From Gemmatimonadota bacterium (lineage in GTDB: Bacteria; Latescibacterota; UBA2968; UBA8231): DNA of 64,000 nt. Of the stretch, positions 7,346 to 64,000 are shown in pieces. The stretch covers positions 66,249 to 130,248 of the forward strand of contig VXML01000024.1 in NCBI GenBank assembly GCA_009841115.1. The letters run 5' to 3'. Every line of letters starts with the position of its first letter. Positions within the stretch are counted from its first letter, which is position 1. Under the pieces are notes generated by a model. The model had not been told where the DNA came from, did not search any database, and worked only from the letters and a program-made list of their open reading frames with translations. The translations under genes and the position numbers were made by a program.

Positions 7346-9016
7346 ATGACGCGGAGAAAAGTTCTCGCCCTGTTAGCGTTTTTCGCTGGCATTAGCACTG
7401 TGTATGCCCTCGCCGAGCGGCAGGCGCAGAGGATGCAGGCGACAGAGGCAGAGCTGAGTATCGACTGGGATGCGGTGGTTGACGACCCAGAGGAGCGGCT
7501 CGAGATCTCTTGGATGAGCATCCCGCGCTTTCCCACTGCGCGCGAGGGCACTTGGATCGAAAAGCGGCTCGAAGCGCGGTTCAACGTCGATTTCAAGCCG
7601 CTGTTTACCAGTCATTTTGCCTATATGCGGCGTCGGCCGTTGGTCTTTGCCGGCGGCAATGTGCCCGATTTGTTCTACGCCGGCGATCCAGTCGTGGTGC
7701 AAAAGGACGCCCACCACGGCTATGCGCTGCCCATTCCCTATGAGGTCATCCAAAAACACGCGCCCAACTATGTGCGCTATCTCAACGAGTACGCGCCCTC
7801 GGCGTGGCTCTACGCCTACTGGAAGGGGGCCAATTACGGTATTCCCACTTGGGGCAGTAGCCTCGGCTATCCTGTGCCGGGGATCTGGAGGATGGACTGG
7901 CTGCGCAACGTCGGCATCGACAAGGTGCCGGAAAACCTCGACGAGATGTACACGGCGCTGTGGAAATTTCGCCACGAGGACCCGGATGGAAATGGGATAC
8001 AGGACACCTACGGCATGTGTCCCAATGCGCAGGCTTGGTTCAATGTCTTTGGCGCGGTCTTTGGGGCCTACGGGATCGTGCCGCACGGTTGGATGCTGCG
8101 CGACGGCGAGGTTGTGTGGGGCGGGACTCGGCCCGAGGCCAAAGAGATCTTGGGCCTTTTGCGCAAGTGGTACGCCGACGGGCTGATTGACCCCGACTTT
8201 GCGATCGGCCAAATCAAGAGCAGCCCAATACCCTACCAGAAATTCGTCAGCGGCAAGACGGGATACCTCTTCAGCCACGGCGGCTATAGCAGCTTTGACC
8301 AGTACAACAAGGCGTCGTTGGTATCGGTCATTGCCGAGTTGCAGCCGGGTGCTGAGGTGGTGGTCGGGCCGTTTCCAACCGGCCCAGAAGGCATCCGCGG
8401 GGCGCGGGTGTGGAGCACGGCCGCCCATGTCTTTGTCTTCGGTAAGCAGGTAGCGGCCGCGCCTGAGAAGGTGGTGCGGATGCTCAAAATTTTCGAGGCG
8501 CTAGCGGTTGAGGAAAAGCTCTTTGTGGAGGTGCGGATGGGCCAGCGGGGCGTGCATTGGGAGTTCGACGCTGAGCGCGGCCTGTACTATCTGCCGCCCT
8601 ACGACGACCGCAACGTTGCCAACAAGCATCTTATCGTGTTGAACGTCGATGGCCCGGGTGGATTTTTCGCGCCCTGTGGGGTCCGGCCCGCCATTGCCGA
8701 CAAGTACCTGCCAACGGCCATGCTGCGACACCGCGAGCGCTATCAGCGCACCGAGTGGGCGCAGGCCGGCCTGTTCGGCAAGCCGGACGTGGTGCCTTCG
8801 TCGATCAAGCACTTGCGCGATTTGCGCAATTTGCAGATGACGGTTTACGCCGAGATCGTGCGCGGCGAGCGCGACCTTGACTATTTTGACGATTTTGTGG
8901 CCGAATGGACGGAACGGGGCGGGGCGGAGATGACCCAAGAGGCGCGGGAAATCTACAAGGTGCGCGAGGAGATTTACCGGAAGGTAGGGGTGGTGCAGAG
9001 ATTTACCGGAAGGTAG
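7346..9016 (+). CDS. Extracellular solute-binding protein, LplA-type (carbohydrate ABC transporter)
   Basis: DEMYTALWKFRHEDPDGNGIQDTYGM, typical LplA-like SBP; N-terminal TM/signal. Confidence 0.75.
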   Translation: MTRRKVLALLAFFAGISTVYALAERQAQRMQATEAELSIDWDAVVDDPEERLEISWMSIPRFPTAREGTWIEKRLEARFNVDFKPLFTSHFAYMRRRPLVFAGGNVPDLFYAGDPVVVQKDAHHGYALPIPYEVIQKHAPNYVRYLNEYAPSAWLYAYWKGANYGIPTWGSSLGYPVPGIWRMDWLRNVGIDKVPENLDEMYTALWKFRHEDPDGNGIQDTYGMCPNAQAWFNVFGAVFGAYGIVPHGWMLRDGEVVWGGTRPEAKEILGLLRKWYADGLIDPDFAIGQIKSSPIPYQKFVSGKTGYLFSHGGYSSFDQYNKASLVSVIAELQPGAEVVVGPFPTGPEGIRGARVWSTAAHVFVFGKQVAAAPEKVVRMLKIFEALAVEEKLFVEVRMGQRGVHWEFDAERGLYYLPPYDDRNVANKHLIVLNVDGPGGFFAPCGVRPAIADKYLPTAMLRHRERYQRTEWAQAGLFGKPDVVPSSIKHLRDLRNLQMTVYAEIVRGERDLDYFDDFVAEWTERGGAEMTQEAREIYKVREEIYRKVGVVQRFTGR

Positions 9017-9027
9017 GAGTGGTGCAA
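8970..9027 (+). repeat. 29-bp tandem duplication at the SBP 3' end
   Basis: agatttaccggaaggtaggggtggtgcag immediately followed by agatttaccggaaggtaggagtggtgcaa; offset 29 nt. Confidence 0.85.
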
Positions 9028-9037
9028 TAGGGGCGTC

Positions 9038-10690
9038 CTAGACCATGTGGCCGTGCCGTCCTCGCATATAGAAGGTGCCGTCCGGACTCATGCCGGGGAA
9101 TCTCCACGCGCCGGAGTTGATGGGCCAAGGCAGGACATCGGCGCGGTCGGCCCACTCGCGGTAGCGTTTTTCCATTTCCCTAACCCTATCTTTTTCCCGC
9201 TCCGCTAAATTGTTGAGTTCGGTGCGATCTTCTTCCATGTTGTAAAGTTCCCAGCCGCCTTGGCCGCTGGTTTCGCAAACCAGTTTCCACGGCCCGATGC
9301 GGATGGCGGCATTGCCCTCGTGCTCCCAGTACATAGGTTTTTCGCGCGACCACTCGCGGCCTTCGAGGAGAGCGAGGAAGCTCTCGCCTTCGAGGGGGGT
9401 AATGGTGTGGCCGTCGTATTCGGCGGGATAAGAAGCGCCGGCTGCGTCGATGAGGGTGGCGGTGATGTCGATGATTTGGGCCGGGGCGTGCGCGAGGTCG
9501 GGTTGTTTGATGGTGGCTGGCCAGCGAACGATGCAGGGGGTGGCAATGCCGCCTTCGTGGACCCAGCGCTTGTAGCGGCGGAAGGGAGTGGTGCTGACAT
9601 TGGCCCAAGGCACGTCGTAGCTCATGTAGGTGTCCTCGGCTCCGGGCATCAGACCGGGGATGTTGCCCATTTGCACGGGCCGCCCGTCGTGGGTGGTGAG
9701 GCCCTGTAAAAAGACCCAGTCGATGCGGTTGCCGTCCTCGCACAAGAATTCAGCGCAGCCGCCGTTGTCCGAGAGGAAAACGACTATGGTGTTGTCCTCC
9801 ACGTTGTGTTCGCGGAGTTTGGCGAGGATGCGGCCGATGCCTTGGTCCATGCGATCGACTTGGGCGGCGTACACGGCCATGCGCCGGTCTTCCCAATCTG
9901 GGTCGGCCACTTCATGCCAGGGAGGTGCGTCCTCGTCGCGGGGCGATATGTCCCAGTGGGAGCTGACGACTTCCATATCTTTGAGCGCTTCGTGGCGGGC
10001 GGTGCGCGCTGCGTCCCAGCCGCCTTTGTGGTACTGGCCTTGGTAGCGGGCGATGTCTTCCTCAAAGGCGTGGAGCGGCCAGTGAGGTGCTGTGTACGCG
10101 ACGTACATGAAAAAGGGTTGATCGGTGCTTTCGGAGATGAAGTCAACGGCGTGATCGGAGATGGCGTCGGTGAGGTAAAAGTCGGTGGGATTTGCGGCGA
10201 GAGGTTCGCCATCGAGGGTGCAGGTGCGCCCGCCGAAGTAGCCGCTGTTTCTACCGAGGCCAAAGAGGCGGTCGAAGCCGTGTTGTATCTCGGGAGGGCT
10301 GTCGGCGCTGTCGGGCCTTTTGCCGCAGTGCCACTTGCCCGACATTAGGGTGCGATAGCCGCGCTCCTTGAGCACTTGGGCGATGGTGACGGCCGAGTGG
10401 CGCAGGTAGCCGCCATAACCGGGGGCGTTAGGGATGCCGCCGGCCATGTGGCCGATGCCGGCTTGGTGTGGATAGAGACCGGTCAGCAAGGCCGCGCGCG
10501 AGGGGCAGCAGCGGGCAAAGTTGTACATCTGCGAAAAACGCAATCCCTGGGCGGCGAGGCCATCTAGATTGGGGGTGCGGATTTCGGAGCCGTAGCAGCC
10601 GAGATCGGAATAGCCCATGTCGTCGGCGAGGATGAGGACGATGTTGGGACGTTGGGAAGCGGTGGACATGAAGGGACTCCTGCTTTGCAA
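9038..10690 (-). CDS. Arylsulfatase (sulfatase family S1)
   Basis: RPNIVLILADDMGYSDLGCYG; FARCCPSRAALLTG (CxPSR); GKWHCGKR; HDGRP...; Cys-type. Confidence 0.9.
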   Translation of the reverse strand: MQSRSPFMSTASQRPNIVLILADDMGYSDLGCYGSEIRTPNLDGLAAQGLRFSQMYNFARCCPSRAALLTGLYPHQAGIGHMAGGIPNAPGYGGYLRHSAVTIAQVLKERGYRTLMSGKWHCGKRPDSADSPPEIQHGFDRLFGLGRNSGYFGGRTCTLDGEPLAANPTDFYLTDAISDHAVDFISESTDQPFFMYVAYTAPHWPLHAFEEDIARYQGQYHKGGWDAARTARHEALKDMEVVSSHWDISPRDEDAPPWHEVADPDWEDRRMAVYAAQVDRMDQGIGRILAKLREHNVEDNTIVVFLSDNGGCAEFLCEDGNRIDWVFLQGLTTHDGRPVQMGNIPGLMPGAEDTYMSYDVPWANVSTTPFRRYKRWVHEGGIATPCIVRWPATIKQPDLAHAPAQIIDITATLIDAAGASYPAEYDGHTITPLEGESFLALLEGREWSREKPMYWEHEGNAAIRIGPWKLVCETSGQGGWELYNMEEDRTELNNLAEREKDRVREMEKRYREWADRADVLPWPINSGAWRFPGMSPDGTFYMRGRHGHMV

Positions 10691-54709: not shown

Positions 54710-57022
54710 ATGTTATCGACTTTTTTGAAAGTAACAACACCTAACAAAACTATCGGCTGGACGGCCATTGTGCTAGGGCTGCTTTGCGGCCCGGTGTCAG
54801 CGCAAGCGACGACTCGCGTTGAAGTGCCCATTTTTGAGGGCGGCGCGGGACTAGACTTTTTCTTTTTTGCAGCACGCGAATACGAAAAGGTCCGTCCCGA
54901 TGTGCAAATCGATCTCTACGGCGATCCGCGCATCGCCGACAAGGTGCGGGTGCGGATTCTCGAAGGGACGTTCCCGGAAGTTAGCAACGCGGGACTCAAT
55001 TACTGGGCGCTGATCCGCAACGGCGAAATTTTGCCCCTCGACGACTTTCTGGACGGGCCGAGTTGGGACGGGGACCAGACTTGGCGCGAATCCTTCCTGC
55101 CCGGTAGCCTCGACCGCTATGAGTACGAGGGCAAGATCTACGGCATTCCCTTCCTCTACTCGGTTTACGCCGTCTGGTACAACAAGAACATGTTCGAAGA
55201 GCACGGCTGGGTACCGCCGCGCACTTGGGATGAGTTTTTCGCCCTCTGTGAGCAAATCCGCGCCGCAGGGGTCTGGCCGCTGGCCTTTCAGGGGCGCTAT
55301 CCAGGCTATATCGGCGGCGTGACCGACAACGCCTATTATCACCTCGCTGGCCGCGAGCGGTTCTACGAGCAGAAGGATCTAGTGCCGGGCAGTTTTGCCA
55401 ATCCCGAATTCGTGACGGCGCTCGAGCTTATTCAGCGCACGGCGCGGGAGTACTTCCAGCCCGGTGCGCTCGGCATGAGCCACACCGAGGCGCAGCTCGA
55501 GTTTTTCTTGGGCCATACGGCGATGGTCTTTTGCGGCTCTTGGCTCAAGAGCGAGATGATGGGCAAAATCCCCGATGGCTTTCGCTTGGGGGCATTTAAT
55601 TTGCCCGTAGTCGAAGGCGGGGTTGGCGAACCCGGTGCCATATATACTGGTGCCGGGTATTACTTTGTCTTCAAAAACAGCGCCCACCCCGAGTTAGGCG
55701 CGGATTTCTTGCGCTTTATGACCTCGCAGGAGATGGCCGGTACCTTTGCCGAGATGCGCGATGTTTTGGTGGCCGTCGATGGGGCGATGGAGGGGCGGAC
55801 CAGCGAAGATTTGCAGGACTTAGTGGCGCTGGCACAGCAGGCGACGACGACCTATGGCACGGCCCCGGGCGAGGGTTTCCCGGAGATGGACCAGTTCCTC
55901 AACGATGTGCGCTTCAAGATCGTCAATGGGCAGATGACGCCCGAGGCAGGGGCTAAAGAGTTGGAGTCGGCGGCTGAAGCGGTGCGCAACCGCAGCCAGC
56001 AACCGGATCAGATCATCATCCGCCACCTGTGGAAGCCCGCGCTGCTGTTGGGCCTGTTGGCGCTGGCGATGGGCTATTGGTTGTACACGACGGCGCGGCA
56101 GTGGCGCGAAAGACAGACGGGCCAAGCTCCTCGACCTACTAGCACTGTGCGTCTGCCTTGGAAGGGGGTGGTGTTCTTCGTCGGTCCGGCCGCGGCGTTC
56201 TACACGCTCTTCGTGGTGGTGCCTAGCATCAAGTCCTTTGTCTGGAGCGCGATGCGCTGGGATGGACTGACCGAGATGGCCTTCGTCGGGTTGTTGCACT
56301 TCCAGCGGCTGCTGTTCGAGAGCGACGAGTTCTGGATTGCGCTGTCGAACAATCTCTTCATCATGTTCGTCATCCCACTCTGCGTGTTGCCGCTGGCGCT
56401 TTTTTTGGCGGTGTGCATCAGTCGCGAGGTCATTGGAGCCAAGCTCTTCCGCATCGTCTTCTTCTTTCCCAACATTCTCGGCGGGGTCGCGGCGACGCTG
56501 CTGTGGATGCACTTGTACAATCCACAGGGCGGGCCGATCAATACGGTGTTAGTCGCGTTGGGATTGGAGGGGTTTGAGGGGTTTGCGTGGCTGGCGCAGG
56601 ACAACCTTTACTGGGCGCTGATTCCCATGTCGATTTGGGGTGCGGCTGGGTTCAATATGGTGCTGTTTTTGGCGGCCATGGAGAGCATTCCGCAGAGCAT
56701 GTACGAGGCGGCTGACATCGACGGGGCCTCGGCTTGGCGGCAGTTTTGGTCGATTACGGTGCCGCTGATTTGGGAGGTTTTGTCGATAGCGATTGTGTTT
56801 ATGATCATCGGCGGGATGAAGGCGTTTGAGGTGATTTGGCTGCTGACCAATCAGCGGCCGACGACCGACAACCACGTGATTGGCACGCGGATGGTGCAGG
56901 CCATGTTTACTGAGTTCAAGGTGGGGGAGGCTACGGCGATTGCCGTGCTGCTCTTTTTGATCGTCTTCTTTGGCACTACCGCGACCTTGCGCGCAATGAA
57001 GCGCGAAGCTGTGGAGTTTTGA
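54710..57022 (+). CDS. Fusion: CUT1 extracellular solute-binding domain + MalF-type ABC permease
   Basis: SBP half (VEVPIFEGGAGLDFFFFAAREYEKVRPDVQIDLY...YVFKNSAHPELGADFLRFMTSQEMAG) continuous with permease half (VVFFVGPAAAFYTLFVVVPSIKSFVWS...SMYEAADIDGASAWRQFWSITVPLI). Confidence 0.88.
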   Translation: MLSTFLKVTTPNKTIGWTAIVLGLLCGPVSAQATTRVEVPIFEGGAGLDFFFFAAREYEKVRPDVQIDLYGDPRIADKVRVRILEGTFPEVSNAGLNYWALIRNGEILPLDDFLDGPSWDGDQTWRESFLPGSLDRYEYEGKIYGIPFLYSVYAVWYNKNMFEEHGWVPPRTWDEFFALCEQIRAAGVWPLAFQGRYPGYIGGVTDNAYYHLAGRERFYEQKDLVPGSFANPEFVTALELIQRTAREYFQPGALGMSHTEAQLEFFLGHTAMVFCGSWLKSEMMGKIPDGFRLGAFNLPVVEGGVGEPGAIYTGAGYYFVFKNSAHPELGADFLRFMTSQEMAGTFAEMRDVLVAVDGAMEGRTSEDLQDLVALAQQATTTYGTAPGEGFPEMDQFLNDVRFKIVNGQMTPEAGAKELESAAEAVRNRSQQPDQIIIRHLWKPALLLGLLALAMGYWLYTTARQWRERQTGQAPRPTSTVRLPWKGVVFFVGPAAAFYTLFVVVPSIKSFVWSAMRWDGLTEMAFVGLLHFQRLLFESDEFWIALSNNLFIMFVIPLCVLPLALFLAVCISREVIGAKLFRIVFFFPNILGGVAATLLWMHLYNPQGGPINTVLVALGLEGFEGFAWLAQDNLYWALIPMSIWGAAGFNMVLFLAAMESIPQSMYEAADIDGASAWRQFWSITVPLIWEVLSIAIVFMIIGGMKAFEVIWLLTNQRPTTDNHVIGTRMVQAMFTEFKVGEATAIAVLLFLIVFFGTTATLRAMKREAVEF

Positions 57023-57024
57023 GC

Positions 57025-57882
57025 ATGGCGGAACAAGAAAAATTTTCTTTTGCCAAACCTTTTGTCTATTTGGTGCTATGCGGCTATCTGACGGTTGTGG
57101 TCTATCCGATGCTGTGGCTGTTGTACACTTCGCTGAAGACGGACCGCGAGATTTTTCTCAATCCTTTCAGCCTGCCCGAGTTCGACGCCTTGCAGTGGAT
57201 CAACTTTGCCAACGCTTGGACTAAGGGGCACTTCGGCGATTACTTCTTCAACAGCGTCTTTTTGACCATTTCGACGGTGGCGGTTTCCATGTTGCTGGCG
57301 GCAATGGCGGCCTATGCGCTGGCGCGCTTTCGCTTCTTTGGGGTGAGGCCGATGTTTTTCTACTTCTTGGCCGGGTTGATGATCCCGTTGCAATTGTCTA
57401 TTGTGCCGCTCTTTTTTCAAATGAAGGACTTTGGATTGCTCAATTCGCGGTTGGGTATCCTGATAGTCTATGTGGCCTTTGGGATGCCGTTTGCCATCTT
57501 TATTCTCACGGGGTTTTTCAAGTCTTTGCCTTCTGGGTTACACGAGTCGGCGCTGATCGATGGGGCGGGGGAGTTTCGGGCGTTTTGGTCGATTATGTTG
57601 CCGTTGGCGCGGCCGGGGCTTATTACGGTGGGCATCTTCGCCTTTTTGGGGACTTGGAACGAGTTTTTCATGGCCTTTATGTTCCTGTCTGGGGAGGGGT
57701 CGCAGGCGTTGCGCACTCTGCCGTTGGGGCTGGCTAATATCACTATTGTCAGTCAGTATCGCAGCGATTGGGGGATGGCTTTTGCGGGGTTGGTGCTGAT
57801 TATGGCTCCGACGATGTTGGTGTATGCGTTTTTGCAGCAATATCTGACGAAGGGGATTACTGTGGGGGCGCTTAAGGGGTAG
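57025..57882 (+). CDS. Carbohydrate ABC transporter permease, MalG-like
   Basis: GLHESALIDGAGEFRAFWSIMLPLARPGLITVGIFAFLGTWNEFFMAF; start ATG just after preceding TGA. Confidence 0.9.
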   Translation: MAEQEKFSFAKPFVYLVLCGYLTVVVYPMLWLLYTSLKTDREIFLNPFSLPEFDALQWINFANAWTKGHFGDYFFNSVFLTISTVAVSMLLAAMAAYALARFRFFGVRPMFFYFLAGLMIPLQLSIVPLFFQMKDFGLLNSRLGILIVYVAFGMPFAIFILTGFFKSLPSGLHESALIDGAGEFRAFWSIMLPLARPGLITVGIFAFLGTWNEFFMAFMFLSGEGSQALRTLPLGLANITIVSQYRSDWGMAFAGLVLIMAPTMLVYAFLQQYLTKGITVGALKG

Positions 57883-57924: not shown

Positions 57925-59025
57925 ATGCCAAGATTGAAGAATATCAAGATCAGGGGATTTCGGTCTATCAAAGAAATGACGCTGGAACTCCAGCCGCTCA
58001 ATGTTTTGATCGGTGCCAATGGGGCTGGTAAGAGCAATCTCATTGCCTTCTTCAAGTTAGTAAATGAATTAATGGGCGGACGGCTTCAGCAACATATTGG
58101 AGCGACCGGGAGGGCCACAGCCAATTTGCATTTTGGCCCGAGGATAACTCCTCAGTTGGAAGCGGAGATGGCGTTCGAGGTAGAGAATGGAACAGACACC
58201 TATAGCATGCGACTGTTCCACGCTGCCGGTGATTCGCTGATTTTCGCCGAAGAGACGCTGTCGTTTCATCAAACAGGCTTTCCGAGACCAAAGATCGTAC
58301 CGCTGGGAAGGGGCCATCAGGAAACGCGGATTGGAGATGAGGCAGAAAAGGATGACCCGGTGGCAAAAATGCTCCGGTATCTGCTGAATCGCTGTCGCGT
58401 CTATCACTTCCACGACACATCGCCGACTTCGAGAGTCCGGCAGTATTGCTACATCGGCGACAACCGCTGGCTCATGCCTGATGCAGCGAATCTGGCGGCG
58501 TTACTGTATGCACTCAAGTCCTCCAAAGAAACGGCTTATCGCCGAATTGTGGGGACCATTCGGCAGGTGGCACCGTTCTTTGAAGATTTTGATCTGGAGC
58601 CGACCGATTCTAAAGACATCACTCTCAACTGGCGGCATCGCAAGTCAGATCTCGTGTTTGGCCCCCACCAACTCTCGGACGGTACGCTGCGGGCCATCTG
58701 TCTGATTTCGCTGTTGTTGCAGCCCAAAGAAGACCTCCCAATACTCATAGTGGTGGACGAACCGGAAATCGGCTTGCACCCTTACGCGCTCAATGTGATT
58801 GCCTCGCTACTTCGCGCCGCAAGTCACCATACGCAGGTTCTCGTCAGCACCCAGTCCAGCGCGTTTCTCGACAGCTTTGAGTCTGAGGATATCGTAGTTG
58901 TCGAGCGGAATGGTGAAGCCACGGAGTTCTCCAGACCAGATGCCGAAGAGCTCGAAACATGGCTGGAGGAGTACTCGCTTGGGGAAATCTGGGAGAAGAA
59001 CGTCATCGGCGGAGGGCCGCACTGA
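57925..59025 (+). CDS. AAA family ATPase (OLD/RecF-like, AAA_21-type)
   Basis: IKIRGFRSIKEMTLELQPLNVLIGANGAGKSNLIAFF (Walker A); LPILIVVDEPEIGLHPYALNVIASLLRAASHHTQVLVSTQSSAFLDSF. Confidence 0.85.
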   Translation: MPRLKNIKIRGFRSIKEMTLELQPLNVLIGANGAGKSNLIAFFKLVNELMGGRLQQHIGATGRATANLHFGPRITPQLEAEMAFEVENGTDTYSMRLFHAAGDSLIFAEETLSFHQTGFPRPKIVPLGRGHQETRIGDEAEKDDPVAKMLRYLLNRCRVYHFHDTSPTSRVRQYCYIGDNRWLMPDAANLAALLYALKSSKETAYRRIVGTIRQVAPFFEDFDLEPTDSKDITLNWRHRKSDLVFGPHQLSDGTLRAICLISLLLQPKEDLPILIVVDEPEIGLHPYALNVIASLLRAASHHTQVLVSTQSSAFLDSFESEDIVVVERNGEATEFSRPDAEELETWLEEYSLGEIWEKNVIGGGPH

Positions 59026-59714
59026 TGGTGCGACTCCATCTCTTCGCCGAAGGTGACACAGAGCAGACATTTGCCGATACGGTCTTGAAGCCTCATCTAG
59101 CGAATCTTGGCGTCTATATGCAGAAACCGACCTTGATTGCCCACGCCCGGAAGAAGGGCATAGTCCATCGAGGAGGAGGTAGAAACTTCAGGGCGATGCA
59201 GAATGACATTGATCGCCGCCGCAAACAGGAATCGGGGAATGACGTGTTTTTTACCACGATGATTGACCTTTATGCCTTGCCTACGAAATTTCCCGGCGTT
59301 GAAGAAGCTGAGAAATTGCGTCTTGACCCATATAAGCGGGTGGAGGCTCTCGAAAAATCGTGGTTCGATGAGACCAATGATCATCGCTTCATCCCGTTCA
59401 TTCAGTTGCATGAATTTGAAGCGTATTTGTTTTCTGATGTATCTCAGTTCGCTTTCTTCTTTGACAATGCAGATTCCCCAATCTCCGCTTTGCAGAGCAT
59501 TGTCGATGATGTCCAGTCCCCAGAACTTGTTGACGACGGACAACACACGGCTCCATCGAAGCGGATCATCGCCGAATTTCCCGAATACTCAAAAACAACA
59601 GTAGGATCACAGATGGCCGAACGGATTGGCTTGGAGAACATCCTCTCCAAATGTCCTCACTTTAAGGCGTGGGTTGAGCGACTTGAGCAACTCGGAGCCA
59701 CCGAAAAGCCGTAA
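59025..59714 (+). CDS. DUF4276 family protein
   Basis: VRLHLFAEGDTEQTFADTVLKPHLANLGVY ... TTMIDLYALPTKFPGVEEAEKL ... FIPFIQLHEFEAYLFSD; TGATG overlap with ATPase stop. Confidence 0.8.
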   Translation: MVRLHLFAEGDTEQTFADTVLKPHLANLGVYMQKPTLIAHARKKGIVHRGGGRNFRAMQNDIDRRRKQESGNDVFFTTMIDLYALPTKFPGVEEAEKLRLDPYKRVEALEKSWFDETNDHRFIPFIQLHEFEAYLFSDVSQFAFFFDNADSPISALQSIVDDVQSPELVDDGQHTAPSKRIIAEFPEYSKTTVGSQMAERIGLENILSKCPHFKAWVERLEQLGATEKP

Positions 59715-59720
59715 TTCATA

Positions 59721-59850
59721 ATGACCAAAACGGCGACCCGGCTGACGACAGCGGTTGAAGCCTACTTCGCCGACCTGCAACGAGTCTAGGGTCCGGCGGC
59801 GTGACTGGCGAGCCATGGGCCACTGGCCAACCCAACTATTCTTGGCTCGA
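59721..59850 (+). pseudogene. Decayed N-terminus of a type ISP-like restriction/methylase gene
   Basis: atg..: MTKTATRLTTAVEAYFADLQRV* then, after a 1-nt shift, SGGVTGEP and later LANPTILG; matches the remembered N-terminus ATRLxTAVEAYFxDLRRVRASGGATGERSYYPxLANLLN. Confidence 0.5.
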
Positions 59851-60838: not shown

Positions 60839-60857
60839 CTAAGCGACCTAATATGAT

Positions 60858-61033
60858 TGATGTGGCGGAAGATGTGGATGAGTCGGTCGCGCGTCGCTTG
60901 CGTCAGCGGCGGGCGGGCGAAAGACGCGAGGTTGGCGTCGAGGTGGTCGGCGTTGCCCGTGCCGGAGAGGACGACGTGGACGCCAGACTCGTCGCGGCAA
61001 AAGCGATAGGCGGCATCGGGTAGCGATGGAGCC
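60858..61033 (-). pseudogene. Relic of aldo/keto reductase 3' end (left copy of direct repeat)
   Basis: 176 bp aligned without indels to 63627-63802 with 14 mismatches counted by eye; translates SLPDAAYRFCRDESGVHVVLSGTGNADHLDANLASFARPPLTQATRDRLIHIFRHIN. Confidence 0.9.
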
Positions 61034-61065
61034 AGCGGAACCTGAATCATTGAAAGGAGTGAGCT

Positions 61066-62025
61066 ATGACAAGTTATAAAGGTTATGAGGAAGATGTGCG
61101 CCAGACGCTGTGGTCTTGGGCTGACCGACACTATCGGGGCAAACTCGATGACGGCAAGCGAGAAGGGCGTCCGCCGGTTCTCGCGAGAGAGTTCGCATCG
61201 GAGAATGTCTTGGTTCCTCCGAAAAACGAATCGAAGGCGCGTGACATTCGCGACGCCCTTTCCCGAGGTCGGCATCGGTGGTTTCACAGCCTGAAGAGTT
61301 CCCAGTCCTTGGCGCAAAGCGTGTTCGGTGCGCTCCGCGCCTTCAACCGCCTTGATCTGCTCCAAGATGTGTACGCCGAGTGTGGGCAATCGGCCTTCTT
61401 CGCAGACCGAAATGGCTGGAAGCTCTGCTTAGAGCATGAGATGAACAACCTAAGAGAGCCGAGACCGACCAGCGTCGACGTGCTGCTGAGCGAATCGGAA
61501 AAGCGAGTCGCTATCGAATGCAAGTTCACCGAGCAAGAGTTTGGTACCTGCTCGCGCCCACGCCTGCGTCCTAGCGATGCCAATTATGCCGAACAGCATT
61601 GCAATGGGAAGTATCAGATCCAACGGTCACGCCACGAGCGTTGCGCTCTGACGGAGATCGGTATTCGTTACTGGGAACATTTGCCCCACCTGTTCGATCG
61701 GCCGTCCGACCAAGATCACGAGCCGTGTCCGTTTGGAGAAGTCTATCAACTGGCGCGCAATGCGCTGGCCTCCGCACTCACGCCACATGGAGAGCTTGAC
61801 CTGACTGGAGGACACGCACTTGTCGTTTACGATGCTCGCAACCCCAAGTTCCAGGATGGGGGCAAGGCCACAGAGCAATGGACCGAAGCGGTCTCTGTGT
61901 GTCGCATGCCGGGCCTTTTGCGCCGCCTGAGTTGGCAGCGCCTGATGGCCGCCATCTCCCGTGCGCCAGAACTGGAGTATCTCGTCAATGGCGTTAGGGA
62001 GAAATATGGTATAGAGTCGGATTGA
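61066..62025 (+). CDS. Putative PD-(D/E)XK restriction-endonuclease-like protein (PGN_0703-like)
   Basis: TSVDVLLSESEKRVAIECKFTEQEFGTCSRPRLRPSDANYAEQHCNG (D..ECK core) and GGHALVVYDARNPKF. Confidence 0.65.
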   Translation: MTSYKGYEEDVRQTLWSWADRHYRGKLDDGKREGRPPVLAREFASENVLVPPKNESKARDIRDALSRGRHRWFHSLKSSQSLAQSVFGALRAFNRLDLLQDVYAECGQSAFFADRNGWKLCLEHEMNNLREPRPTSVDVLLSESEKRVAIECKFTEQEFGTCSRPRLRPSDANYAEQHCNGKYQIQRSRHERCALTEIGIRYWEHLPHLFDRPSDQDHEPCPFGEVYQLARNALASALTPHGELDLTGGHALVVYDARNPKFQDGGKATEQWTEAVSVCRMPGLLRRLSWQRLMAAISRAPELEYLVNGVREKYGIESD

Positions 62026-62063
62026 CTACCGGAAAAGATCGACCAAAGAGGACGAGTGTACCG

Positions 62064-62450
62064 ATGAACGAACAGGATGTACAGATCATTGAGAAGGACG
62101 GCGAGCCGGAATACGCTGTCGTCCCAATTGAGGAATACCGTCGCATGGTCGCCGCGCTTGAGGACGCGGCCGATTCTGCGGCTATCGAACGGGCATGGGC
62201 CGAGGACGCAGCAGGCGAGACGGTTCCGGGCGAAGTCGTAAAGGCCATTCTCGCTGGCGAATCGCCCTTGCGCGTGTGGCGGAAATACCGCGAATTCACG
62301 CTGGATGCACTGGCCGAGCAGGTAGGTGTCTCAAAAGGGTATTTGTCGCAGATTGAGAATGGACAGAAGTCCGGGACACTCGGCCTATTCCGCCGACTCG
62401 CGGGCGTGCTCAATGTGGCACTGGACGAGTTAGCACACCCAACGAGCTAA
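62064..62450 (+). CDS. XRE-family HTH regulator with Phd-like N-terminus (antitoxin-like)
   Basis: GEPEYAVVPIEEYRRMVAAL + YREFTLDALAEQVGVSKGYLSQIENGQKSGTLGLFRRLAGVLNVALDEL. Confidence 0.85.
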   Translation: MNEQDVQIIEKDGEPEYAVVPIEEYRRMVAALEDAADSAAIERAWAEDAAGETVPGEVVKAILAGESPLRVWRKYREFTLDALAEQVGVSKGYLSQIENGQKSGTLGLFRRLAGVLNVALDELAHPTS

Positions 62451-62465
62451 TGGAATCAACCATTT

Positions 62466-63587
62466 TTACTCAACGAGTGCCTCTCGGTGTGTCTTGTGAG
62501 ATTCCTCGTATAAGGCCATCACATCCAAATCTGGAATTTCTTCTGGTGCAAAGTACCACTTTGCAATGAGTGCCTCACCATCCACAGCCTGTACTTTAAG
62601 GTCAAAAATCACTTCTTGGGTTGGGTATGTGAGCGCAAGTTTATCACGCACTTGCTTCAGATCTACCGGGAAAGCAGCACCTTGCCTGGGCGCAGTGAGT
62701 TTGACATGCACGAAAAGCGGCATTTGTTGATTGAAAGTATTCAATCCGTGTACCGGCCCGAGAACATCGAGATAGTAGCGAAGCAACATTTCCTTATTGC
62801 GATCAATAACAATATCTCCTACTAGAGCACGGACGAGTGCATGCACGAAACGCACTAGATAGTCAACCTGTTTGCTGCTCAAGGTTAGGCTAGTGCCTTG
62901 CTCGGAACTTGAGAGAGTAAATGCGTCTTTGGAGACAGAGAAGCTATTTTTATGAACAACCTCATGGCGATATGGCAACAGTTGACAAAATAGTGCCTTG
63001 GCATAGGTGTAAAGGTACGGTTGACTATCGAAGAGAGTTGGTAGTTGGAGATTGGATTCTTTCTTCAGCAGCTCCACTTTCTTCTTAAAAGGTTGGGGAA
63101 CAGTTGTAAAATTCTCTTCAATGATCCACTCAAAGATCATATCTAGAGCCTTGAAGGAAGCCATAAAAGTAAAAGGCATCATGGTGTTTATGATTGTTGC
63201 GTTATAAAGAGAGGAGAGGTAGTCTTCAGAGACCATTTCTACATTACAAAACTCATCGCCGCTCGTGAGCTCGATTACCGGTGGATCGTCCTTACCCTGC
63301 ACCCTATCATAATTCTTTTCCAAAAAACTGAGAAACCAGATCTCATAATCCAACTTAGTCCGAAGTGCTGTGTTATGGACAGTAGCCAATTCCTTATCTT
63401 CTAGTTTTGATCTGATCTCTTCAAAAAGTTTTACGACCTCGGGCGTATAAAGGCGTTCGCCACAACGAAAACAAACTGCAGCTTGAACTTTTACGATCTC
63501 CGTGTGATTGCCAACTCGTAGAACTTTCTCGACTTCCTTTTCAATAATCTCGCCACTACACACTGGACATTTTGCCAACGGAGTCAT
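62466..63587 (-). CDS. YgiT/MqsA-N-type zinc finger fused to large HEPN-like domain
   Basis: CPVCSGEIIEKEVEKVLRVGNHTEIVKVQAAVCFRCGERLYTPEVVKLFEEI; later ALFCQLLPYRHEVVHKNSF with R-x4-H motif. Confidence 0.6.
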   Translation of the reverse strand: MTPLAKCPVCSGEIIEKEVEKVLRVGNHTEIVKVQAAVCFRCGERLYTPEVVKLFEEIRSKLEDKELATVHNTALRTKLDYEIWFLSFLEKNYDRVQGKDDPPVIELTSGDEFCNVEMVSEDYLSSLYNATIINTMMPFTFMASFKALDMIFEWIIEENFTTVPQPFKKKVELLKKESNLQLPTLFDSQPYLYTYAKALFCQLLPYRHEVVHKNSFSVSKDAFTLSSSEQGTSLTLSSKQVDYLVRFVHALVRALVGDIVIDRNKEMLLRYYLDVLGPVHGLNTFNQQMPLFVHVKLTAPRQGAAFPVDLKQVRDKLALTYPTQEVIFDLKVQAVDGEALIAKWYFAPEEIPDLDVMALYEESHKTHREALVE

Positions 63588-63600
63588 TACTATATCCTCT

Positions 63601-64000
63601 CTACACCTCTTGTCCCGTGGTAGAATTGACGCGGCGGAAGATGTGGATGAGTCGGTCGCGCGTCTCTTGCGTCAGCGGCGGGCGAGTGAAAGATGCGAGG
63701 TTGGCGTCGAGGTGAGCGGCGTTGCCCGTGCCGGAGAGGACGACGTGGACGCCTGGCTCGTCGCGGCAGAAGCGGTAGGCGGCATCGGGTAGGGATGGGG
63801 CCTCGGCCAATAGGAAGTCGGGGAAGGCATCGAGGCTTCGACCTGAGCTCAGCCGAAGGTCGGCGAGGTCGATTTGCCCCTTTTCGACGAGCGCGTCGGT
63901 GAATGCGCGCAGGTTGTCGGGGTGGCTAAGTGCCTTGCGGACGGCGAACATGATTTGGATGCCGACGTTTTGCGCGATGGCTTGTGCGAAGACGTTGGCG
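63601..64000 (-). CDS. Aldo/keto reductase C-terminal part, truncated by window edge
   Basis: ANVFAQAIAQNVGIQIMFAVRKALSHPDNLRAFTDALVEKGQIDL...LPDAAYRFCRDEPGVHVVLSGTGNAAHLDANL; frame open to window end. Confidence 0.8.
   Translation of the reverse strand, partial: ANVFAQAIAQNVGIQIMFAVRKALSHPDNLRAFTDALVEKGQIDLADLRLSSGRSLDAFPDFLLAEAPSLPDAAYRFCRDEPGVHVVLSGTGNAAHLDANLASFTRPPLTQETRDRLIHIFRRVNSTTGQEV

Follow-up and report, generated by a model that had tools for sequence, protein, structure and literature searches.

A duplicated aldo/keto reductase gene end in a defence-gene hotspot of Candidatus Latescibacterota as a possible scar of additive gene acquisition

It is not settled how genomes acquire defence genes when neither a transposase nor an integrase takes part. 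The term insertion with long target duplication goes back to two H. pylori strains (Nobusato et al. 2000), and the pattern is tied to restriction-modification genes (PMC1643837, PMC3031569, PMC3154945, PMC4978471); our literature search found no settled mechanism for this type of insertion, described in 2000. In one-sided illegitimate recombination, one homologous anchor is combined with one illegitimate joint that has little or no homology (PMC2884548 Fig. 7a; PMC3240628). Oliveira et al. (2017; PMC5635113) described integrase-free hotspots whose content is exchanged through flanking core genes, by double-crossover replacement. Defence systems in sponge-associated Latescibacterota have been listed (PMC12993501), and we found no paper on a gene-end scar pattern in this phylum.

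The pattern at the aldo/keto reductase (AKR) locus described here, and at several loci of a related complete chromosome (G003), matches insertion with long target duplication as known from Helicobacter. Accessory, often restriction-related genes are enclosed by a long direct repeat of resident sequence that varies in length (178 bp at 92% identity at the AKR locus, 57-150 bp at G003 loci A-F), the repeat is single-copy in related genomes, and no recombinase is known. By contrast, the hosts here are uncultured Latescibacterota, toxin-antitoxin, SIR2, DUF262 and other genes are also involved, the copies at the AKR locus resemble alleles from separate lineages, and there are stacked double stubs. 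With homology-facilitated illegitimate recombination, the mechanism that we propose would share one homologous anchor and one joint of little or no homology, but here it is read from scars, and gene ends are duplicated whereas replacement or deletion is usual. Overall, these Latescibacterota seem to take up defence-type genes bit by bit, and the spots examined have no recognisable gene for a transposase or integrase.

The repeat and the genes around it

The stretch of DNA analysed (the window) comprises 64,000 nt of a draft genome in 112 contigs, with an estimated contamination of 7.6%. A repeat search of the window returned a direct repeat at 60856-61033 and 63625-63802, 178 nt long and ungapped, with identity at 164/178 positions (92%) and 14 mismatches (BLAST E = 2.7e-69; two copies in total in the host genome). 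This pair is the longest repeat family of the window and the sole family above 65 nt. The sequence-only reading had reported 176 bp in the same orientation, with 14 mismatches and no gaps, and the alignment agrees, giving 178 bp. The features of the locus, in window coordinates, are:

57019-57882, plus strand: sugar ABC transporter permease, left core gene of the hotspot (adjoins the variable region in G001, G003, G006, G007, G009 and G010)
57925-59714, plus strand: HEC-01A/B-type defence pair, AAA_21 ATPase and DUF4276 (PADLOC HEC-01A E 8.5e-142, HEC-01B E 7.8e-77)
59720-59831, plus strand: 5' stub of a Type ISP methyltransferase gene (59726-59813 is 82% identical to L018 732-820)
59924-60838, plus strand: GIY-YIG (T5orf172) and cold-shock domain protein (Pfam)
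60856-61033, minus strand: AKR 3'-end stub, the left repeat copy (repeat search, BLAST, alignment)
61066-62025, plus strand: PD-(D/E)XK nuclease, REase-ARP family (PF22558 E 6e-28)
62064-62450, plus strand: Phd-XRE fusion regulator (domain search; module 62062-62463)
62466-63587, minus strand: YgiT-type Zn-finger protein with an R-x4-H (HEPN-like) motif (domain search, alignment; module 62463-63592)
63601-64000, minus strand: intact AKR gene, the 3' part in the window, with the gene continuing to 64554 beyond it (L003:5850-6803, Aldo_ket_red E 1.7e-35)
63625-63802, minus strand: right repeat copy, within the AKR gene (repeat search, alignment)

The right copy had been taken for the real AKR end and the left for a relic, and this is borne out: the AKR gene on the right is intact and encodes 317 aa (minus strand, 63601-64554, extending beyond the window end), and the left copy corresponds to AKR codons about 251-309 (~59 codons), without the rest of the gene and without the last 8 codons. 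The stub starts ~15 bp past the stop codon of the GIY-YIG/cold-shock gene and ends 32 bp upstream of the nuclease start. Because the stub abuts the GIY-YIG gene without the AKR terminus, this gene probably joined after the stub was dead. A recurring short motif, GTAGAATTGACG, found at both ends of AKR was considered as a recombination site and rejected; it belongs to the AKR terminus and is not general. In G006 (L019, oriented position 9651), a truncated Phd-XRE gene runs directly into 14 bp that are the same as in the AKR terminus; this may be a very short scar.

Domain searches confirmed the nuclease, Phd-XRE and Zn-finger genes that the earlier reading had placed between the repeat copies, and its HEPN call survives as a motif call. 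R207 and H212 of the Zn-finger protein are conserved without exception across 6 homologues, and the putative HEPN label is one at motif level; its AlphaFold model has a mean pLDDT of 63 (low confidence), and a structural search with the model returned no match. Homologues of this protein with 49-60% identity are located elsewhere (G006:C1:3599783-3600673, G001:C61:2752-3642, G010:C46:73242-74336 and G006:C1:5087757-5088848); two of them lie between alcohol dehydrogenase-like and short-chain dehydrogenase genes and seem to be without the Zn finger. Among 65 genomes of the phylum, this one alone yielded the nuclease, and a search for its native upstream context in the phylum, the genome contig collection and phages gave no relative. 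The homologues recovered are distant ones on Rhizobiaceae plasmids, with at most 41% identity among the matches listed. For the GIY-YIG/cold-shock protein, the search of the genus gave single-domain partial matches only, and a full-length counterpart in no other genome.

The permease-AKR interval in related genomes

The congeners compared are Candidatus Latescibacterota and include G003 (OX638377) and G006 (OY282352), both single-contig chromosomes, as well as G007 (JAJEIO01) and G010 (JAJEFJ01). Several are known sponge-associated or marine metagenome bins; a sponge source of the bacterium is our reading of bin names together with the sponge literature (PMC12993501). The permease and AKR genes bound an interval of differing content in G001, G003, G006, G007, and G010. 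It holds a Type ISP methyltransferase, a TIR-APAZ/short-Argonaute pair, toxin-antitoxin genes and a HEPN/nucleotidyltransferase pair in G007, a 1634-aa NACHT protein in G003, Schlafen/AlbA proteins in G001 and G010, and a Cas3 HD piece with a repeat array in G006; in G009, a contig end breaks the locus and the Zn-finger gene directly follows the permease.

No integrase, transposase or recombinase domain was found among the hotspot proteins scanned in this genome and its relatives. Content that varies between conserved core genes in several genomes, with no mobile-element gene among the proteins scanned, makes the interval an integrase-free hotspot in which defence and toxin-antitoxin genes accumulate. 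As in the hotspots of Oliveira et al. (2017), the variable content between two conserved genes is rich in defence genes, no mobile element is recognised, and recombination would act through the flanks. The difference is that content is replaced there, whereas here alleles are added together and gene-end stubs are left. In the G007 interval (L018, G007:C46, 4059-7267), the short prokaryotic Argonaute adjoins a TIR-APAZ protein with an N-terminal XRE-type HTH, a fusion that may be unusual for SPARTA-like pairs. In G006 (L019, oriented 8420-9460), the Cas3 HD gene runs into the array, and the translated repeats suggest CRISPR repeats.

The three genes between the repeat copies are not one unit, because the Zn-finger gene in G009 and the Phd-XRE gene in G003 occur alone. 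The Zn-finger module (62463-63592) is 94.7% identical to its counterpart in G009, where the other two genes are not beside it and a DUF4258 gene, missing in the window, lies upstream. The Phd-XRE module (62062-62463) is 92.8% identical to G003, where it stands by itself, and fragments of it are left in G006 and G010. In the window, the two modules abut at 62463 to the base. A single mobile three-gene cassette is therefore rejected. On the left side of the hotspot, between-genome homology stops 0-2 bp from the permease stop codon in four genomes. The HEC-01 pair is missing from G007, where homology runs up to 57911 and is back at 59726, and the methyltransferase gene, a 5' stub in the window, is full-length there (L018:724-4068).

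Where this could be checked, nine close genomes have one AKR end each, and a tenth match lies at a contig edge; a second full AKR gene decaying in place was sought in the congeners and not found. The comparison with empty sites that had been proposed yields relatives with one AKR end only, and no genome searched has the exact allele that would have preceded the insertion, with AKR next to the GIY-YIG gene or the permease next to the nuclease. Of the earlier idea of an accessory unit at the AKR 3' end, one part holds: accessory genes enter and are exchanged beside the AKR end, and relatives have a single AKR end. The other part, a single unit moving via the repeat, fails, as the genes occur separately, no recombinase was found in the loci scanned, the stub is trimmed on its AKR-terminal side, and the other flanking gene also gives relics, with variable breakpoints.

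These relics, which are stubs of a second type, are copies of the permease 3' end. The copy in G010 is 160 bp long and lies behind the HEC-01 pair and the methyltransferase 5' stub; the one in G002 measures 140 bp and lies behind a truncated HEC-01B gene. The breakpoints are not the same, with the G010 joint on ~6-8 bp common to both parents and almost none at the G002 joint; therefore, they are evidence against a fixed attachment site. The left flank of G002 was left out of this comparison, as the first ~650 bp of the contig (L021, G002:C231, 1-650) resemble animal DNA by eye; this animal-, possibly sponge-like start is joined to bacterial DNA, and the contig is probably chimeric.

Gene-end duplications at other loci

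A survey based on mechanical ORFs looked for partial copies of gene ends, either behind a 3' end or ahead of a 5' end. It gave 11 candidates over 1.2 Mb of the complete chromosome G003, 1 over 0.4 Mb of G006, and 3 over 0.4 Mb of G031, a member of another family of the class. Some of the candidates are not clean, and H and I are one larger rearrangement. The same script applied to pieces of at most 21 kb gave 8 candidates in G003 and 0 in 1.13 Mb of mixed other bacteria, controls that are unmatched in phylogeny and genome quality.

At G003 loci A-F, gene ends of 57-150 bp are duplicated around accessory genes, and the duplicated length is variable. The inserts are mostly one or two genes, as read from the translations, including VapBC, SIR2, a DNA methyltransferase, DUF262, a HipA-like gene, an oxidoreductase and others. 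For loci B, E, and F, sister genomes carry an empty site, with a single copy of the duplicated segment and continuous flanks, and locus D is likewise empty in G006; at the AKR locus, the congeners have the single AKR end, and the GIY-YIG flank is unique to this genome. The duplicate copies at E and F are 98-99% alike, with one mismatch each.

Locus A/G5 can be followed across genomes. Gene1 and gene2 are adjacent in G000, G001, G006, G007, and G009, and G010 has the VapBC allele only. In G003, the order is gene1, VapBC, gene2' and then gene1', DUF262, gene2, with a 7-bp overlap at the seam between gene2' and gene1'. The G003 locus is a head-to-tail arrangement of two alleles of one site, and its outer genes are both intact. 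The gene2' stub matches G010 at 89/100 positions, G002 at 88/100 and its own gene at 87/100.

The joints lie within 3 bp of a stop codon in 7/12 cases. Insertion exactly at stop codons was considered as a striking feature and set aside, since the excess is modest (p 0.006, a test chosen after inspection) and intergenic gaps are short (median 20 bp). In G006 (G006:C1:4630660-4644827; L205 2161-2237 and 16080-17752), the gene end of G003 locus C is duplicated ~14 kb apart, with a larger island behind that gene.

Origin of the scar

The AKR stub matches the intact AKR gene of its own genome at 164/178 positions and the six nearest congeners at 157-164, and the intact gene matches G003 at 170/178. 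Among the 11 stub states that depart from the congener majority, 8 are found in other congeners and 3 are unique; such sharing would be expected for the allele of another lineage, unlike random decay of a resident copy. A tree that forces the stub and its own AKR to be sisters is 5.5 lnL units worse (AU p 0.050), and the 178-bp tree itself does not resolve. There is moderate support for the view that the stub may be an allele from another lineage. At six G003 loci with 24 sites, the departures from the relatives in the gene copies lie nearer to the insertion joint than those in the stubs (one-sided p 0.014-0.02, chosen after inspection). These joint-proximal departures and the affinity of the A/G5 gene2' stub favour donor-borne gene ends, while E and F, with their one mismatch each, fit both a donor-borne and a resident origin, and several G003 copy pairs are too similar or too short to show foreign origin.

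We consider the repeat to be the scar of additive gene acquisition at a hotspot without a recognised integrase, with a probability of roughly one half, slightly better than even. The donor would be a related strain or species, and its DNA, in which accessory genes lie next to an AKR 3' end, would recombine with the resident locus. One end would be guided by homology in the flanking gene, and the other would be an illegitimate joint, in many cases at a microhomology of a few bases. The resident allele would be kept and the newcomer stacked onto it, with a truncated gene end left to mark the seam. Behind the AKR stop codon, the nuclease, Phd-XRE and Zn-finger genes would probably be separate arrivals, and the GIY-YIG/cold-shock gene would have joined later, trimming the already dead stub. 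The illegitimate joints have a 7-bp overlap in G003 and ~6-8 bp in G010, and the site of the homologous crossover cannot be located. Order and mechanism at the AKR locus, including the one-sided homology and a route by natural transformation, are what we infer, because the exact pre-insertion allele was not found and there is no pair of parents against which to read the joint.

The usual outcome of one-sided illegitimate recombination is a deletion in the recipient DNA. Duplication is seen here, perhaps because selection removes deletions that reach into the gene. ComEC is present in 9/11 genomes, and Ku was sought in the genus and is absent; these gene contents would be compatible with uptake of free DNA and are not proof of competence. 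Ku-type end joining is rejected for a genus without Ku.

The strongest competitor, plausible though clearly the less probable of the two, is insertion within the lineage with a long target duplication, in which a staggered break or template switching copies 50-200 bp of a resident gene end (T) to both sides of the insert. It fits the order Left-T-insert-T-Right with one uninterrupted T in sister genomes, as observed at G003 loci; T is variable in length, its copies are 98-99% alike at E and F, and the pattern is known for restriction-modification genes (PMC1643837, PMC3031569). Against it, the AKR stub is no closer to its own AKR than to those of other species, while that AKR is itself close to G003, and at A/G5 the gene2' stub has its better matches in G010 and G002, ahead of its own gene.

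An assembly artefact, with contigs of two co-occurring strains misjoined at 61034 in a metagenome-derived genome, is improbable. The 112 contigs, the estimated contamination and the evidently chimeric contig start in G002 make such an error conceivable, but like structures occur at several loci of the single-contig chromosome OX638377, and the joint shows no long identical overlap that an assembler could have used. Less probable still is a site-specific element whose integrase inserts cargo at the AKR 3' end with a replacement end, leaving an att-like duplication. A direct repeat at a gene 3' end around cargo has this classic look, and the AKR stop codon is a hotspot edge in many genomes, but the proteins scanned include no integrase or transposase, the stub is without the AKR terminus, breakpoints vary and no fixed core site is seen, cargo genes occur independently on either side of the hotspot, and the other flanking gene is treated alike. 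Least of all do we expect a tandem AKR duplicate that decayed in place with genes landing later between the copies, since the stub, although a same-strand AKR piece beside the intact gene, has no second-copy counterpart in any congener, carries only its 3 unique changes, is cut on both sides, and has parallels at unrelated G003 genes.

A tentative extension, which we hold to be possible rather than probable, is that Latescibacterota have a frequent integrase-independent route, perhaps transformation-coupled and one-sided, which would add single defence or toxin-antitoxin genes behind stop codons, stack hotspot alleles, leave a 50-200 bp scar per event, and so build the defence islands of the phylum gene by gene. 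The mechanism is testable by comparative genomics, because the scars are common, empty sites are known, and one parental form of the stacked alleles has been sampled.

A larger structure was also observed in G003 (G003:C1:1214053-1226291; L145, L146), where a gene cluster is partially duplicated, with one stretch of 640 bp (93% identity) and one of 120 bp (99% identity); this is possibly a case of two merged alleles of one operon.
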